A DNA stretch of 64,000 bases from Anaerovorax odorimutans DSM 5092 (GTDB taxonomy: Bacteria > Bacillota > Clostridia > Peptostreptococcales > Anaerovoracaceae): NCBI RefSeq assembly GCF_000426305.1, contig NZ_AUFC01000008.1, forward strand, positions 62,001 to 126,000, in the 5' to 3' direction. The notes under the pieces were generated by a model that worked only from the letters and a program-made list of their open reading frames with translations, ran no database searches and was not told where the DNA came from. This document shows, piece after piece, positions 25,540 to 50,309 of this stretch; position 1 is the stretch's first letter; each line of letters opens with the position of its first letter. Position numbers and translations under genes: made by a program.

Positions 25540-26232
25540 TCAGTCATTATTTACACAATATTGTTTTAAATAATCTTCCATCTTTTCTTTCACTGAATCA
25601 TCAATAACAACTTTACCATCAATAGGGACATTATGTAAGGTATCTATAATGTCACGAACTGTTACGATTGGATAAGTCTTTATACCAAATTCCGCTTCTA
25701 TTTCCTGAATGGCAGTTTTATCATGCTGACCTCTTTCCATACGATCTACAGAAATAATAAGACCTGTAAGATTCACATTTGCTGATGCCTTAAGAATAGG
25801 GAAACATTCTCTTATAGCTGTTCCAGCCGTAATAACATCTTCGATAATTAAAACATTATCACCATCTTTTAGCTTATAGCCTACCATTGAACCACCCTCT
25901 CCGTGATCCTTTTCTTCTTTTCTGTTAAAACAGTAGTTTAAATTTTTATCATATTCATTGGATAAAGCAATGGCAGTAGCTACAGAAAGGGGAATCCCCT
26001 TATATGCTGGTCCAAAAAGTGCAGAAATATCTCCTTTGATATTTCCTTTATTTATATTTTCCATTATACATTCAGCATAAAACTTACCCAATTGAGCTGC
26101 TTGCTTACCTGTTTTATAATTTCCTGTATTTACAAAATAAGGTGTTTTTCTTCCGCTTTTTGTAGTAAAATCTCCAAATGTTAAAACATCTGATTTTACC
26201 ATAAATTCTATAAACTCTTTTTTATAACTCAT
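25540..26232 (-). CDS. pyrE: Orotate phosphoribosyltransferase
   Basis: Attaches PRPP ribose-phosphate to orotate, giving OMP. The 230-residue protein has the PRPP-binding motif LIIEDVITAGTAIRE near residue 130 and the catalytic-loop lysine context NRKEEKDHGEGG. It is the long clostridial form. Last gene of the pyr operon, 28 bases after pyrD, with GGAGAAATAA before the ATG. No clear terminator separates it from the germination gene 70 bases further on. Confidence 0.96.
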   Translation of the reverse strand: MSYKKEFIEFMVKSDVLTFGDFTTKSGRKTPYFVNTGNYKTGKQAAQLGKFYAECIMENINKGNIKGDISALFGPAYKGIPLSVATAIALSNEYDKNLNYCFNRKEEKDHGEGGSMVGYKLKDGDNVLIIEDVITAGTAIRECFPILKASANVNLTGLIISVDRMERGQHDKTAIQEIEAEFGIKTYPIVTVRDIIDTLHNVPIDGKVVIDDSVKEKMEDYLKQYCVNND

Positions 26233-26260: not shown

Positions 26261-27172
26261 CTATTCACAAAAGGCTTCTCTTATTTCCCTAATAGTTTTA
26301 AATCCATGTTTTTCCATATATATCTTTAATTCTTTTAAAATGTCTACCGGCGCAGTTGGATTAATCAACGCAGCTGTTCCAACTGAAACAGCATCTGCTC
26401 CTGCCATAATAAATTCTACGACATCCTCACCTGTCATAATACCTCCTAATCCAATAATAGGAATATTAACTGCTTTTCTTACCTGATAAACCATTCTTAC
26501 GGCAACAGGTTTAATTGCAGGTCCTGAGAATCCTCCCATTTTGTTACATACAACCGGTCTTTTTCTGTTAACATCTATCTTCATACCAAGTAAGGTATTA
26601 ATGAGAGAAACACAATCCGCACCTTCAGATTCTACTGCTTTTGCAATTTCTGTAATATCTGTAACATTTGGAGTTAGTTTAATAATAATGGGTTTTTTAG
26701 AAACTGCCCTAACACCTTTAGTTACTTTCGCTGCCATATCAGTGCTTGTTCCAAATCCAATTCCGCCCTCCTTTACATTTGGGCAAGAAATATTTATTTC
26801 CATCATATCTATATCAGTATCATTTAATTTTTCCGCTACTGAGCAATATTCCTCTATAGTCCTTCCTGCTACATTTACAATAATTTTCGTATTAAAATTT
26901 TTTAAATAAGGTATTTCTTCTTTTATAAAATAATCAATTCCCGGATTTTGAAGACCAACTGCATTAATCATACCTCCATAAGTCTCTGCGATTCTTGGTG
27001 TAGGATTTCCATCCCAAGGAACACTGGCGACACCCTTTGTTATCACTGCTCCAAGTTCATTGATATCATAATACGCACCGCTTTCTCTTGCTGAAAAAGT
27101 TCCTGATGCTGTGGTAATTGGGTTTTCTAATTTTACACCGCACAAATTTACTTTTAAATCTAACTTACTCAT
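26261..27172 (-). CDS. pyrD: Dihydroorotate dehydrogenase class 1B, catalytic subunit
   Basis: Oxidises dihydroorotate to orotate with FMN, passing electrons to PyrK and NAD+. The 303 residues include ITTASGTFS, the catalytic cysteine in NISCPNVKEGG, and the FMN site GLGGIMTGEDVVEFIMAG. The Cys base and the linked pyrK show class 1B. The start ATG at 27172 follows GAGGTGG and overlaps the end of pyrK by 8 bases (coupled translation); the in-frame ATG upstream would lie deep inside pyrK and add unrelated residues. Confidence 0.97.
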   Translation of the reverse strand: MSKLDLKVNLCGVKLENPITTASGTFSARESGAYYDINELGAVITKGVASVPWDGNPTPRIAETYGGMINAVGLQNPGIDYFIKEEIPYLKNFNTKIIVNVAGRTIEEYCSVAEKLNDTDIDMMEINISCPNVKEGGIGFGTSTDMAAKVTKGVRAVSKKPIIIKLTPNVTDITEIAKAVESEGADCVSLINTLLGMKIDVNRKRPVVCNKMGGFSGPAIKPVAVRMVYQVRKAVNIPIIGLGGIMTGEDVVEFIMAGADAVSVGTAALINPTAPVDILKELKIYMEKHGFKTIREIREAFCE

Positions 27173-28040
27173 CAAAAACCACCTCATTTCCAAAGAATAC
27201 AGGCCCATCTTTACATACTTTTTTCAACACGATTTTTTCACAATTATTTTCAATATCTTTTTCTTTGATTTTACATATGCAGCCTACACAAGCACCATAA
27301 CCGCATCCCATACGTTCTTCCATAGATACTTGCAATGGAATTACCTTTTGTTTATTTTGAATTTTTTCCTCTATACAATAATTTGTTAATGCCTTCAGCA
27401 TAACTTTTGGTCCGCAGGAATAACAGTAATCTATTTGAATATCTTCTTTTTCAATAAGTTTAACTACATTGCCATGAAATCCAACACTTCCATTATCAGT
27501 AGCAATATAAACTTTATCACAGTAATTTTGCAGCTCTCTTTGTAAAAAAGGTTCTTCTCTAAAGCCTATGACCGCAATCAATCTTATCCTGTTACGCTTG
27601 TATTCATCATCTTCTTTTTTTCTGATTGTTTTTGCTAGTTCAAGCATTGGAGGAACACCAATTCCGCCAGCCACAAGCAATACAACTTTATCCTTATTAT
27701 CAGATAAAACACAATCCATATCTTCTAAATTAAAACCATTTCCGTTTGCTGAGGAAAGTTTAATTTCCTCACCCTCAGTATATGAAGAGAGTTCTTTTGT
27801 TCCCTGCCCCACAACTCCATAAACCAATGTTATATTATCACCTTCCAATTCGCATATACTTATTGGTCTTGGTAATAACAGACTTTTATTGTTTAGATAT
27901 ACGTTTACAAACTGCCCTGCTTTTGCACCATTTGTAACCTCTTTGGCTCTTAATACTATTTTGTATATGTCTTTTGCAATCTCTGTATTTTCAACTATTT
28001 TAGCTTTTACTACTTTTTTCTTTGCTTCAAAGCAACTCAT
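27165..28040 (-). CDS. pyrK: Dihydroorotate dehydrogenase electron transfer subunit
   Basis: FAD and [2Fe-2S] subunit that carries electrons from PyrD to NAD+. The 291 residues show an FAD domain (RPISICELEGDN), an NAD(P) domain (LLVAGGIGVPPML) and the C-terminal cluster cysteines in GCGYGACVGCIC with a later Cys in CKDGPVF. The start overlaps the pyrF stop by one base (TAATG), and its own end overlaps pyrD by eight, so pyrF-K-D are tightly coupled. About 30 residues longer than Lactococcus PyrK, mostly at the N-terminus. Confidence 0.95.
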   Translation of the reverse strand: MSCFEAKKKVVKAKIVENTEIAKDIYKIVLRAKEVTNGAKAGQFVNVYLNNKSLLLPRPISICELEGDNITLVYGVVGQGTKELSSYTEGEEIKLSSANGNGFNLEDMDCVLSDNKDKVVLLVAGGIGVPPMLELAKTIRKKEDDEYKRNRIRLIAVIGFREEPFLQRELQNYCDKVYIATDNGSVGFHGNVVKLIEKEDIQIDYCYSCGPKVMLKALTNYCIEEKIQNKQKVIPLQVSMEERMGCGYGACVGCICKIKEKDIENNCEKIVLKKVCKDGPVFFGNEVVFDE

Positions 28041-28957
28041 TAAATTGCCCCCTGTAAATCTATTTTCATTTCTTTTGCTGATTCTCTTGCTGCATCAGCA
28101 AAATTCATTTCATTATATCGTGAATCTTTTTTATACGCTGCAATAATTCCTCTGGAAGAATTTATAATACAGCCTAGTCCATCCTTGTCAAAAAAACCTT
28201 TTAAATCTTTACCTTTGCCGCCTTGAGCTCCATAACCGGGCACTAAAAAGAAGGTATGAGGCAATCTTTTTCTAAGATCTTCCCCTTGCTCTTTATAAGT
28301 AGCTCCTACAACTGCACCAATTTTACTGTAACCTTTTTTGCCCATCGCAAGTTCTCCCCATTTTGAAACTAAATCAGCAGTTTGTTCATAAAAAGTTTTA
28401 TCCAGATTTTCTACTTTTAAATCCTGAAGTTCACCGCTGCTGGGATTACTTGTCTTAACTAAAATGAAAAGACCTTTGTCCAATTCTTTACAAGGCTTTA
28501 TAAAAGGCTCAATACCATCAAATCCTAAATAAGGATTCAAAGTTACGGCATCTTCTTTCCAAAGATCAAAATATTCATCTTCAATAGAAATTCCTGCGAT
28601 ATGTCCGGCATAAGCCGCTGCTGTTGATGCAATATCTCCACGTTTAATATCGCCTATAATAATTAAGCCTTTTTTCTTGGCATAATCTATAGTCTCTAAG
28701 TAAGCTCTTAATCCTTCTAATCCATATTGTTCATACATGGCAATCTGAGGTTTGACTGCTGGAGCTATATCACAGATTCCATCAATAATTCCTTTATTGA
28801 ACTTTATAAACATTTCTGCTGCAGCTTTTGGTGTTTTTCCGTATGTTTCAAGCATCTCTTTTTTTATCATATCAGGTATCATCACATAAGTAGGATCAAG
28901 ACCTACTACTGTTGGATTTTCAAATTTTATAATCTTTTCTAACAATCTATCTATCAT
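28040..28957 (-). CDS. pyrF: Orotidine 5'-phosphate decarboxylase (type 2)
   Basis: Decarboxylates OMP to UMP, the last step of the pathway. The 305 residues are the long type-2 form (VGLDPTYVMIPDMI at the N-terminus, catalytic IIGDIKRGDIASTAAAYA near residue 100, phosphate site VPGYGAQGG), unlike the 240-residue form of Bacillus. The ATG at 28957 shares one base with the pyrC stop and has GGGAGG eight bases upstream; an earlier in-frame ATG lies inside pyrC and overlaps that ribosome site, so it is unlikely. Confidence 0.96.
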   Translation of the reverse strand: MIDRLLEKIIKFENPTVVGLDPTYVMIPDMIKKEMLETYGKTPKAAAEMFIKFNKGIIDGICDIAPAVKPQIAMYEQYGLEGLRAYLETIDYAKKKGLIIIGDIKRGDIASTAAAYAGHIAGISIEDEYFDLWKEDAVTLNPYLGFDGIEPFIKPCKELDKGLFILVKTSNPSSGELQDLKVENLDKTFYEQTADLVSKWGELAMGKKGYSKIGAVVGATYKEQGEDLRKRLPHTFFLVPGYGAQGGKGKDLKGFFDKDGLGCIINSSRGIIAAYKKDSRYNEMNFADAARESAKEMKIDLQGAI

Positions 28958-30279
28958 TATTTTGCCTCCCAAACAATTTCACCATTACAAATGGTATACT
29001 CAGCCTTACCCCATACATTAATTCCTGTAAATGGTGTATTTTTAGCTTTTGATAAAAATTCTTTCGGATCTATCATATATTTCTCTTCAATATCAATTAT
29101 CGCTATATCTGCTGCATAACCAACTTGCAAACTACCTCTTTTTAATCCTAATATCTCTGCCGGATTTGAGCTCATTTTTTCAATAAGTTTCAGTGGAGAT
29201 AATATCCCTGTTTTTACTAGATAAGTGTAACTTATAGGGAAACTCGTTTCAAGGCCAATAATACCAAATGGTGCCTTTTCAAAAGGTAAAGCTTTCTCTT
29301 CTTCACTGTGAGGCGCATGATCTGTAGCAATGGCATCCAAAGTGCCATCCTTCAGTGCTTCTCTTAAGGCAAGCATATCATCTTTAGTTCTCAGCGGAGG
29401 ATTCATTTTCATATTTGTCTTTGCCAGTGGTTTTTCTGCTACAATTTGCTGGTTTACTATTTCCCATTCAGTCATTGAAATATAATGGGGCGCTGTTTCT
29501 GCAGTAATCTTAATACCTTGCTTCTTTGCTTCACGTATTAAATTCACACTTCCTCTTGTACTCATATGTGATAAGTGTAATTTACAGCCAACTTTAGCTG
29601 CAAGCTCGATATCTCTTTTTACAATGTTTTCTTCTGCCTCTCTTGGAATACCTTGCAAACTCATCCCGTATGACACCAAGCCCTCATTCATAACACCGCC
29701 GGTTAAAGTATGATCTTCTGTATGATCAAATATAGGAAGATTTAATTCTTTTGCTTTTTTCATAGCTTCTTCCATCAAGTTTACATCCATTACTGACTTT
29801 CCGTCTTCACTTATTGCACAAATTCCATGACCCAATAATTCTTTACATTTTGTTTCTGCTTTGTTCATTTCATCTAAATCAGCTAATTGTTTTCCTTCCT
29901 GATTTTTAGTAATCGCACCTATGGGAAAAACATTGATTAATGATGCTTCTTTAGCTTTATTATCTACAAAAGAGACAATTTTTTCGTTATCTATTACCGG
30001 ATTGGTATTAGGCATACAACATACTGTAGTAAATCCACCTCTGGCTGCTGACCTGCAACCACTGGCTATATCTTCTTTATATTCATATCCCGGCTCTCTG
30101 AAATGGACATGCAAATCAATTAAACCGGGAACAACCCATTTTCCTTCTGCATCAATGAATTTCACATCATTATCATCCATGGGATCAACAATAACTCCAT
30201 TATTAATCCAAATATCACTGATTTCTTGAGTTCCTTTTACAGGATCAATAACCAAACCATTTTTTATACATAACTTCAT
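28957..30279 (-). CDS. pyrC: Dihydroorotase (class I)
   Basis: Cyclises carbamoyl-aspartate to dihydroorotate, using two Zn2+. The 440 residues carry the class I motif DLHVHFREPGYEYKEDI near residue 57, further ligand histidines in FDHTEDHTL and LHLSHMSTRGS, and the catalytic Asp in ATDHAPHS. It lies 48 bases after pyrI and overlaps pyrF by one base. Class I length and motifs are complete, so it should be active on its own. Confidence 0.97.
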   Translation of the reverse strand: MKLCIKNGLVIDPVKGTQEISDIWINNGVIVDPMDDNDVKFIDAEGKWVVPGLIDLHVHFREPGYEYKEDIASGCRSAARGGFTTVCCMPNTNPVIDNEKIVSFVDNKAKEASLINVFPIGAITKNQEGKQLADLDEMNKAETKCKELLGHGICAISEDGKSVMDVNLMEEAMKKAKELNLPIFDHTEDHTLTGGVMNEGLVSYGMSLQGIPREAEENIVKRDIELAAKVGCKLHLSHMSTRGSVNLIREAKKQGIKITAETAPHYISMTEWEIVNQQIVAEKPLAKTNMKMNPPLRTKDDMLALREALKDGTLDAIATDHAPHSEEEKALPFEKAPFGIIGLETSFPISYTYLVKTGILSPLKLIEKMSSNPAEILGLKRGSLQVGYAADIAIIDIEEKYMIDPKEFLSKAKNTPFTGINVWGKAEYTICNGEIVWEAK

Positions 30280-30327: not shown

Positions 30328-30759
30328 TTACTTACTGTTCATAGTAACTATCTCATCGCAATATTCACATCTGTATTCTTTATTTTCTTCGTCAATAAGA
30401 TGAAAAACATGTGGTACATTTGTTTCTACAGATGTAACACAACGTGGATTTTTACATTTAATTACGTTTGTTACTGTCTTAGGAAGTTCAAGTTTAATCT
30501 TCTTTTTAATAATATGATCTTCAATAATATTTACTGTGGCTTGATTATCAATTAGTCCCAATGCCGCTAAATCGATATCATCTAAATTTTGAAGTTTAAT
30601 AACATCTTTTCTTCCATATTTGTTGCTTGTTGCATTCATTATAAATGCCACTGTACCCTTTGATGCGTCAATATTTAAATAATCAAGAATCTTTACACCA
30701 AAGCCTGCCTTAATATGGTCTATAACAATTCCCTTTTCAATACTATTAATTACTACCAT
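30328..30759 (-). CDS. pyrI: Aspartate carbamoyltransferase regulatory subunit
   Basis: Nucleotide-binding chain that, with PyrB, forms the allosteric enzyme inhibited by CTP/UTP and activated by ATP. The 143 residues have the N-terminal effector domain (IEKGIVIDHIKAGFGVKILD) and the C-terminal zinc domain with four cysteines: CKNPRC and CEYC, spaced as in E. coli PyrI. The ATG at 30759 follows TTAGGAGG. pyrI here beside pyrB means the enzyme has enterobacterial-type allostery, matching the enterobacterial-type leader upstream. 11 bases follow pyrB. Confidence 0.96.
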   Translation of the reverse strand: MVVINSIEKGIVIDHIKAGFGVKILDYLNIDASKGTVAFIMNATSNKYGRKDVIKLQNLDDIDLAALGLIDNQATVNIIEDHIIKKKIKLELPKTVTNVIKCKNPRCVTSVETNVPHVFHLIDEENKEYRCEYCDEIVTMNSK

Positions 30760-30770
30760 CTCTTTACCTC

Positions 30771-31697
30771 CTAACAAGTTACACCTAAAACACTCATAAT
30801 CAAAGCCATTCTAATAAACATACCATATTTTGCTTGCTTAAAATAAAGGGCTCTCGGATCACTATCTACTTCAACTGCTATTTCATTAACTCTTGGAAGT
30901 GGGTGCAATACTATCATATCTTCTCTTGCTAATCTCATTTTTTCTAAGTCTAGTATATATCTATCCTTTAACCTTATATAGTCTTCTTCGTTAAAAAATC
31001 TTTCTCTCTGTACTCTTGTCATATATAATATATCCAAATCATGGATTACTTCTTCCATTTTTTGTACTTCTTTAAACTCTATATTATTTTTAATTAAAAC
31101 TTCCTTTATAACATAATTAGGCAATCTTAATTCTTCAGGAGAAATAAGTATAAATTTTATATTATTGTATCTGGAAAGAGCCTTTATTAATGAATGTACC
31201 GTCCTTCCAAATTTTAAATCTCCACAAAGACCTACTGTCAAATTATCAAAATGACCTTTTTCTTTTTTTATTGTCAATAAATCTGTTAAAGTTTGAGTAG
31301 GATGTTGATGGCCCCCGTCACCTGCATTAATTACAGGCATATCTGTACTCAAATGAGCAACTTTCGGTGCTCCCTCTTTTGGATGTCTCATAACCGCTAA
31401 ATCCACATAACATGCTACGGTTCTTATTGTATCAGAAATACTTTCACCTTTTGCAACTGAACTGGAATTAGGTTCAGAAAAACCTATTACTTGTCCTCCT
31501 AATCGCAGCATGGCAGCTTCAAAACTAAATCTTGTTCTTGTGCTTGGCTCGTAAAATAATGTTGCCATCAGTTTTCCTTCACAAGCCTTCGTATATTTTT
31601 GAGGGCACTCTATAATTTTATCGGCTAACTGAAAAAGTTCTTCTAATTCACTTGTTGTAAAATCCATAGGTTCTAATAAGCTTCTTCCTTTTAACAT
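30771..31697 (-). CDS. pyrB: Aspartate carbamoyltransferase catalytic subunit
   Basis: Condenses carbamoyl phosphate with aspartate, the first committed pyrimidine step. The 308 residues have the carbamoyl-phosphate motif [14 protein letters not shown] near residue 51, the catalytic His and loop in [12 protein letters not shown], and the aspartate site VLHPLPR. The ATG at 31697 follows GAAGGAGT and gives the family N-terminus [13 protein letters not shown]. The same frame stays open for a further 44 codons upstream through the terminator, but that extension is hydrophobic, foreign to the family and lacks a good ribosome site. First enzyme gene of pyrBICFKDE; expression is governed by the leader attenuator. 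Confidence 0.97.
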
Positions 31698-31718
31698 CGT
31701 GTATACTCCTTCCATACA

Positions 31719-31745
31719 TAAAAAAAGTCTTCCAAAAAGGAAGAC
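31719..31745 (-). terminator. Attenuator (intrinsic terminator) in the pyr leader
   Basis: In minus-strand sense GTCTTCC-TTTTT-GGAAGAC (31745-31727) then seven T. It stands between the leader ORF stop (31753) and the pyrB ribosome site, so transcripts must read through it for any pyr enzyme to be made. Confidence 0.9.
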
Positions 31746-31752
31746 ATAAATT

Positions 31753-31872
31753 TCAAATATTAATAAAAGAAATAGAAGAGAAACTAATACTGCCGATATA
31801 AAACGAATCCAAAAATACCGGTAAATCATGTAATCTTTTTAATTTTGTAACATCATATCTATTCCTATCCAT
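31753..31872 (-). CDS. pyr operon leader peptide (39 aa, pyrL-like)
   Basis: A 39-codon frame starting ATG at 31872 with a near-perfect ribosome site (TTAGGAGGAG, six bases before the ATG) and ending TGA at 31755-31753, seven bases before the attenuator hairpin. The peptide opens [14 protein letters not shown] and closes [12 protein letters not shown]. The last 70 or so bases are T-rich in the transcript (about 41 of 72 by my count), as in E. coli pyrL, where uridine-rich pausing couples ribosome position to termination. It probably acts through being translated rather than as a product. The sequence is not obviously homologous to E. coli PyrL. Confidence 0.65.
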
Positions 31873-31915
31873 AGTTTACTCCTCCTAATTTCTAAATTTA
31901 GCTTAAATCTTCAAT

Positions 31916-31944
31916 ATATTATCATAAAAAAATACTCAGGTCAA
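31916..31944 (-). promoter_or_regulatory. Sigma-A promoter of the pyr operon
   Basis: TTGACC (31944-31939), 17-base spacer, TAATAT (31921-31916) in minus-strand sense. Predicted start near 31909, 37 bases before the leader ATG. The -35 box lies inside the terminator hairpin of the upstream gene. Confidence 0.75.
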
Positions 31945-31957
31945 GTACCTAAGTATT
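31926..31957 (-). terminator. Terminator upstream of the pyr promoter
   Basis: AATACTTAGGT and ACCTGAGTATT form an 11-bp stem with one G-T pair and a 5-nt loop, followed by seven T on the minus strand. It ends the small membrane protein/MscS transcript. Confidence 0.9.
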
Positions 31958-31979
31958 TATATTTTTATTTTTTTATTTA

Positions 31980-50212: not shown

Positions 50213-50309
50213 TACAGAGTAGAAGTTTATACGTGAAGTGTTCTTTGAACGGGGAGTTGTCAAAGAAACGAAAGGAAATCCTGCGGTTTAAACTTTGCAT
50301 CCCGCTGTT
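50213..50309 (+). ncRNA. Tetrahydrofolate (THF) riboswitch
   Basis: Matches the THF-I (folT motif) consensus: an ACAG/CTGT closing stem, GAGTAGA, an AGTTTA/TAAACT helix, the internal GGGGAGTTGTC, the TTCTTTG/CAAAGAA helix and the highly conserved 3' stretch CTTTGCATCCCGCTG. GCATCCC can form the known pseudoknot with GGGG. It lies before a folate synthesis operon and is followed 17 bases later by an intrinsic terminator, so it should turn the operon off when THF binds. Confidence 0.88.

Follow-up and report, generated by a model that had tools for sequence, protein, structure and literature searches.

PyrR is the usual pyrimidine regulator in Gram-positive bacteria. The closest described systems to the locus studied here are the UTP-sensitive, translation-coupled attenuators of Escherichia coli pyrBI and rph-pyrE, a class marked by a reading frame that stops at or beyond the terminator, a U-rich tract before the terminator and no competing antiterminator. 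Translation of the frame lowers the efficiency of an E. coli terminator placed 5 bp after the stop codon from ∼90% to <10% (PMC4824070). No leader peptides were considered known beyond Proteobacteria and Actinobacteria until the prediction of histidine leaders in Bacilli (PMC2965389). We found no earlier report of a UTP-sensitive leader of this kind in Bacillota in the open-access literature. Here we analyze the pyr locus of Anaerovorax odorimutans DSM 5092, within a stretch of 64,000 nucleotides (the window), where all three marks of the class are found.

Layout of the pyrB leader region

An earlier note on this DNA had described a promoter, a leader frame with its ribosome site, a hairpin and a pyrB ribosome site, and we located all of them on the minus strand. 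Positions below are those of the window.

31916..31944, minus strand: sigma-70-type promoter TTGACC-17-TAATAT (-35 TTGACC at 31944-31939, 17-nt spacer, -10 TAATAT at 31921-31916)
near 31909, minus strand: putative transcription start, ∼37 nt upstream of the leader ATG
31881..31886, minus strand: leader Shine-Dalgarno AGGAGG, 8 nt upstream of the leader ATG
31753..31872, minus strand: leader frame of 39 codons with a TGA stop at 31755-31753; equivalent frames occur in relatives
31746..31752, minus strand: gap of 7 nt (AATTTAT) between leader stop and hairpin
31720..31745, minus strand: intrinsic terminator (attenuator) with a 7-bp stem GTCTTCC/GGAAGAC, a T5 loop and T7
31706..31713, minus strand: pyrB Shine-Dalgarno GGAAGGAG, with the pyrB ATG at 31697

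The first half of the leader frame is purine-rich and the second U-rich, with U rising from 0.35 to 0.55. The stem-loop of the attenuator (31745-31727; predicted energy -10.9 kcal/mol) runs directly into the T7 tract (31726-31720). Two terminator-like sites were observed in the 600-base stretch around the leader, where 0.1 were expected, and single-sequence folding of the leader gave a z of -0.68. The pyr promoter shares the DNA of its -35 box with a terminator-like hairpin of 12 bp on the minus strand (31930-31958), which is probably the end of the upstream transcription unit. No similar leaders were seen before carA, the uracil permease gene or upp of the same genome. A search of the whole window against Rfam at the gathering threshold returned a single match, a THF riboswitch away from the leader (50213-50309, plus strand, 83.8 bits). 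It lies upstream of an HD-domain gene, and the genes that follow are presumably folP and folB/K.

Downstream from the leader, the operon runs in the order pyrB-I-C-F-K-D-E (pyrBICFKDE).

30771..31697, minus strand: pyrB, aspartate carbamoyltransferase catalytic subunit (TIGR00670)
30328..30777, minus strand: pyrI, aspartate carbamoyltransferase regulatory subunit (NF002063)
28957..30279, minus strand: pyrC, dihydroorotase (TIGR00857)
28040..28972, minus strand: pyrF, orotidine-5'-phosphate decarboxylase (TIGR02127)
27165..28040, minus strand: pyrK, dihydroorotate dehydrogenase electron transfer subunit (NF000798 family, slightly below cut-off)
26261..27208, minus strand: pyrD, type 1B (NF005574)
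25540..26232, minus strand: pyrE, orotate phosphoribosyltransferase (PF00156 phosphoribosyltransferase match at 87711-88121 of its contig; named from operon position)

PyrI had been taken as a hint of an enterobacterial-type system. We rejected it as a sign of enteric style, as outside the clade of leader-bearing relatives pyrI adjoins pyrB in 65 of 67 loci, mostly in PyrR-type clostridia, and the adjacency is thus general in clostridia.

Recurrence of the leader across a clade of Anaerovoracaceae

We collected the upstream regions of 185 nonredundant pyrB genes and found that the same leader architecture recurs in one Anaerovoracaceae clade of 64 loci, spread over some 20 genera, with unrelated peptides. 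A strict rule asked for a Shine-Dalgarno sequence of at least five matching bases, a frame of 18–60 codons and a stop whose distance from the hairpin core was -3 to 10 nt. Of the 54 clade loci with a terminator, 27 qualified, compared with 0.34 expected from dinucleotide-preserving shuffles and with 0 of 45 terminator loci outside the clade. The count is conservative because it misses the window's own locus, where a neighboring terminator was picked. The other half of the clade's terminator loci fail the strict rule, and a clear leader is mostly missing from a derived sub-clade of fragmentary genomes. At a single locus the architecture would be open to doubt; across the relatives, with 27 occurrences against 0.34 expected, it cannot be due to chance.

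Similar results were obtained when the strongest ribosome site was chosen blind to the position of the stop. Stops then fell at -3 to 10 nt in 27 of 38 clade loci, and 36 of the 38 frames either ended no more than 11 nt short of the hairpin or entered it, placing a terminating ribosome within reach. Outside the clade none of nine frames came near the hairpin, and every one stopped >60 nt away. Stop-to-hairpin gaps within the clade were -1 to 10 nt. In a few members (L017, L019, L174 and L040) the frame enters or crosses the hairpin in the manner of E. coli pyrL, and both geometries thus occur within the clade. A promoter with 16–18 nt spacing precedes 33 of 35 related leaders, mostly ending 34–49 nt before the leader start.

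PyrR and the leader

The earlier note had reported no conserved PyrR-binding loop at this locus, and our searches bear this out. The PyrR RNA model RF00515 had no match in the whole genome and none at the pyrB leader site at E-values up to 5. A PyrR protein model likewise found nothing in the genome, which spans 3.26 Mb and is 98.5% complete. The genome has seven phosphoribosyltransferase matches, which we take to be Hpt, Prs, PurR, Upp, PyrE, Xpt and ComF.

Among relatives, with membership in Anaerovoracaceae assigned from names and taxonomy, PyrR protein was found in 35 of the 39 genomes that represent other families in this order and in 15 of 60 genomes within Anaerovoracaceae. It was found in none of the 31 leader-bearing genomes searched, many of which are drafts (18 of 31 are at least 90% complete). 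We based this co-occurrence count on protein searches because our PyrR-box regular expression, judged by eye, is unreliable: it misses some weak sites and reports some false ones (e.g., L169).

Two genomes, G035 and G122, are the only ones in the leader clade with a PyrR box; both encode PyrR protein and have no leader. Their pyrB loci (L010 and L172, respectively) carry a PyrR-type leader with the same CTTCC/GGAAG terminator, inside the leader clade. In the PyrB tree, whose deep branches are weak, every one of the clade's earliest branches carries a leader, while G035 and G122 sit within the clade in a comb of unresolved branches. These two genomes are candidates for PyrR retention or regain.

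A divergent peptide encoded by a conserved frame

Between genera, the leader peptides share nothing visible, yet the gap, the length class and the U gradient stay. Closely related leaders keep their frame: in nine of 10 pairs of sister species, every indel had a length divisible by three. Substitutions at codon positions 1, 2 and 3 numbered 91, 79 and 141. In the tenth pair (L164 and L165) the frame is shifted, and the stop still lies 5 nt before the hairpin. Comparison of the relatives thus gave the pattern expected in the earlier note, with frame, ribosome site and stop-to-hairpin distance kept and the peptide divergent, and none of the leader genomes searched had PyrR. From this conservation the leader appears to be translated.

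The excess of third-position substitutions would also fit a frame that encodes a small functional protein and is followed by a terminator of its own, with pyrB expressed by read-through. In one genus (L166, L168 and L170, from genomes G109, G204 and G167), leaders of 55–56 codons do share a conserved core, YPSV(F/L)ELICLLPLSG ... DDC(I/L)I, that is unlike all other leaders, and there the peptide may have gained a function. As a general explanation a functional protein seems improbable, given unrelated peptides between genera with constant layout and the close pair that reads different frames to the same stop position. The gap is also abnormal for the family because terminators of ordinary genes lie ∼27 nt after their stops.

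The composition of the RNA is conserved. Across 35 curated leaders, median U content was 0.25 in the first half and 0.42 in the second. The rise was seen in 34 of 35 leaders (p 3e-7) and was accompanied by a fall in purines, whereas control loci were flat. U rises at all three codon positions, and C changes little; the selection therefore acts on the U content of the RNA and not on the peptide.

We considered whether the leader could be a stalling attenuator of the trp, his or erm type, which senses an amino acid or the nascent peptide and switches between antiterminator and terminator. Such systems also place a short translated frame before a terminator, the second half of our leaders is rich in Phe, Ile and Ser codons, and Bacilli have predicted histidine leader peptides (PMC2965389). 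However, no codon is common to all 35 leaders, and the commonest, TTT, occurs in 26, a frequency that U-richness predicts; U rises at synonymous positions as well. No run of control codons was found. Pairing of the 5' arm of the terminator with the preceding 125 nt was no better than in shuffles at leaders (median z 0.03), compared with a z of -2.55 for the same measure at loci outside the leader set, mostly of the PyrR type. Finally, stops in known amino-acid attenuators lie >20 bp from the terminator (PMC4824070), compared with 0–10 nt here. We rejected amino-acid attenuation and antiterminator folding on the codon and pairing evidence, and stalling of this type is marginally less likely than a functional protein. 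With no antiterminator pairing at leaders, the ribosome is the only evident means to block the hairpin.

A related possibility is that an RNA-binding protein or small molecule not yet described takes over the role of PyrR by acting on the leader RNA, the frame being incidental. A genome without PyrR needs some pyrimidine control, and PyrR-type loci carry the CTTCC/GGAAG hairpin core seen at leader-type loci. Against this, the leader RNA matched no Rfam family at E-values up to 5, no alternative pairing of the terminator was found, only the promoter, ribosome site and hairpin sequence are shared by inspection, and the frame recurs far beyond chance. We therefore rank such a factor lower still, as a slim chance. 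That the attenuator reads general ribosome speed or translation capacity, with pyrimidine supply tied to growth, is hardly credible: any ribosome-coupled terminator should react to translation rate (compare PMC4824070, on translation rate and termination), but the strong gradient in U, and not in C, at all codon positions points to UTP.

A probable UTP-sensitive attenuator

Because the layout resembles those of E. coli pyrBI and rph-pyrE, UTP-sensitive, ribosome-coupled attenuation is the best supported reading. Judging by comparative sequence evidence, we consider it very probable that the leader is a UTP-sensitive, translation-coupled transcription attenuator of the pyr operon. The earlier note had arrived at the same reading, which is strengthened here by conserved frame and spacing, a divergent peptide, a U-rich half that is kept, the lack of an antiterminator and leader genomes free of PyrR.

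Transcription would begin ∼37 nt before the leader frame, and a ribosome would load at AGGAGG while polymerase copies first the purine-rich and then the U-rich half. When UTP is plentiful, polymerase would stay ahead, the hairpin would fold and transcription would end before pyrB. When UTP is scarce, polymerase would slow in the U-rich stretch, and the ribosome would close up and reach the stop 7 nt before the hairpin, where it would cover the 5' arm and allow read-through into pyrBICFKDE. We infer both the response to UTP and the occupancy of the leader by ribosomes.

Terminator spacing and transcription–translation coupling

A leader of this kind works only if the ribosome can catch the polymerase. 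A short distance from stop to terminator has been taken to indicate runaway transcription (PMC7858274), as has the purine bias of the coding strand (PMC13323073); the latter study classes the whole phylum Bacillota as runaway. In sampled stretches of five leader genomes, the terminators of ordinary genes lay a median of 27 nt after the stop, and 13 of 111 were within 10 nt. The median was 9 nt in three families of the order that have PyrR, sampled likewise, with 44 of 75 within 10 nt (Fisher p 1e-11); for the window's genome the comparison was at matched GC content. Spacing was also wide in other Anaerovoracaceae genomes, with or without PyrR or the leader, where terminators were few. Sampled stretches from relatives and from the genome itself (L218–L341) gave terminators ∼23–46 nt after stops in Anaerovoracaceae versus 7–10 nt in two other families of the order. 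By this measure Anaerovoracaceae look E. coli-like, a pattern from which the pyr leader departs markedly. The contrast is a possible family-level difference in transcription–translation coupling inside a phylum that has been classed as runaway.

Purine bias disagreed with terminator spacing, and we did not retain it as a second measure of coupling. Coding strands of Anaerovoracaceae are 54%–57% purine, within the Bacillota range, and Rho is present, which rejects loss of Rho as an explanation of the bias in this genome. Purine bias and Rho together suggest runaway and not coupled transcription, in conflict with the wide spacing. If polymerase slows in the U-rich half, the ribosome could close the distance locally, whether the genome is coupled or runaway.

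Origin and significance

The earlier note had left the choice between independent origin and transfer. Transfer from enterics is unsupported: PyrB and PyrI are 46% and 32% identical to their E. coli counterparts, PyrB groups with Anaerovorax and other clostridia (up to 83% identity to Anaerovorax PyrB), and the leader peptide did not match the Pfam model PyrBI_leader (PF08052) at E-values up to 1, for which the control, E. coli pyrL, scored 3e-34. Independent origin is favored because of the low identity to E. coli and the lack of a PF08052 match. The hairpin core shared with PyrR-type loci is consistent with a new sensor swapped onto an old terminator.

We propose, tentatively and with somewhat less than even confidence, that a family of Bacillota independently evolved ribosome–RNA polymerase coupling as a UTP sensor that replaced PyrR, and that this was enabled by coupling that was kept, as suggested by wide stop-to-terminator spacing, unlike in sister families and B. 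subtilis. Anaerovoracaceae are Gram-positive gut and soil bacteria in which the E. coli strategy evidently evolved separately, and the pyr leader would be a clear case of two unrelated lineages converging on one regulatory design, in which a single operon changed its sensor and kept its type of terminator. If the leader works as proposed, its conservation across ∼20 genera contradicts a blanket runaway rule for Bacillota (PMC13323073), and it may serve as a natural reporter of coupling in Gram-positives.

Comparison with known systems

Like E. coli pyrBI, the Anaerovorax locus has a short leader frame before pyrB-pyrI, a U-rich tract and an intrinsic terminator with a long T run, with no antiterminator described and with the hairpin ∼90–130 nt from the leader start. 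The E. coli leader pyrL (PF08052) has 44 codons and crosses the hairpin, whereas the Anaerovorax leader stops 7 nt before it. Anaerovorax also lacks a U-run at the putative start for reiterative initiation, and its operon encodes the whole pathway. The spacing is closer to that of rph-pyrE, where the intact rph stop lies 7 nt before the core of the pyrE hairpin, followed by T8 and then the pyr gene; rph is a full enzyme gene, however, and Anaerovorax has a dedicated frame of 39 codons. In E. coli K-12, a shifted rph stop lies ∼36 nt from the pyrE hairpin and is known to lower pyrE expression.

The PyrR-dependent attenuators of Bacillota (RF00515) control the same operon with the same kind of terminator, and the clade's PyrR-type relatives share its CTTCC/GGAAG core, but in Anaerovorax a putatively translated frame stands in place of PyrR, its binding loop and the antiterminator. 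As in the trp, his and leu attenuators, a translated leader would control a terminator; it has neither a run of control codons nor an alternative fold, and its stop lies 0–10 nt from the hairpin versus >20 bp (PMC4824070). The Anaerovorax leader is thus predicted to work like those of pyrBI and pyrE while standing outside the pyrL family, with no homology to the pyrBI leader apparent from its sequence.
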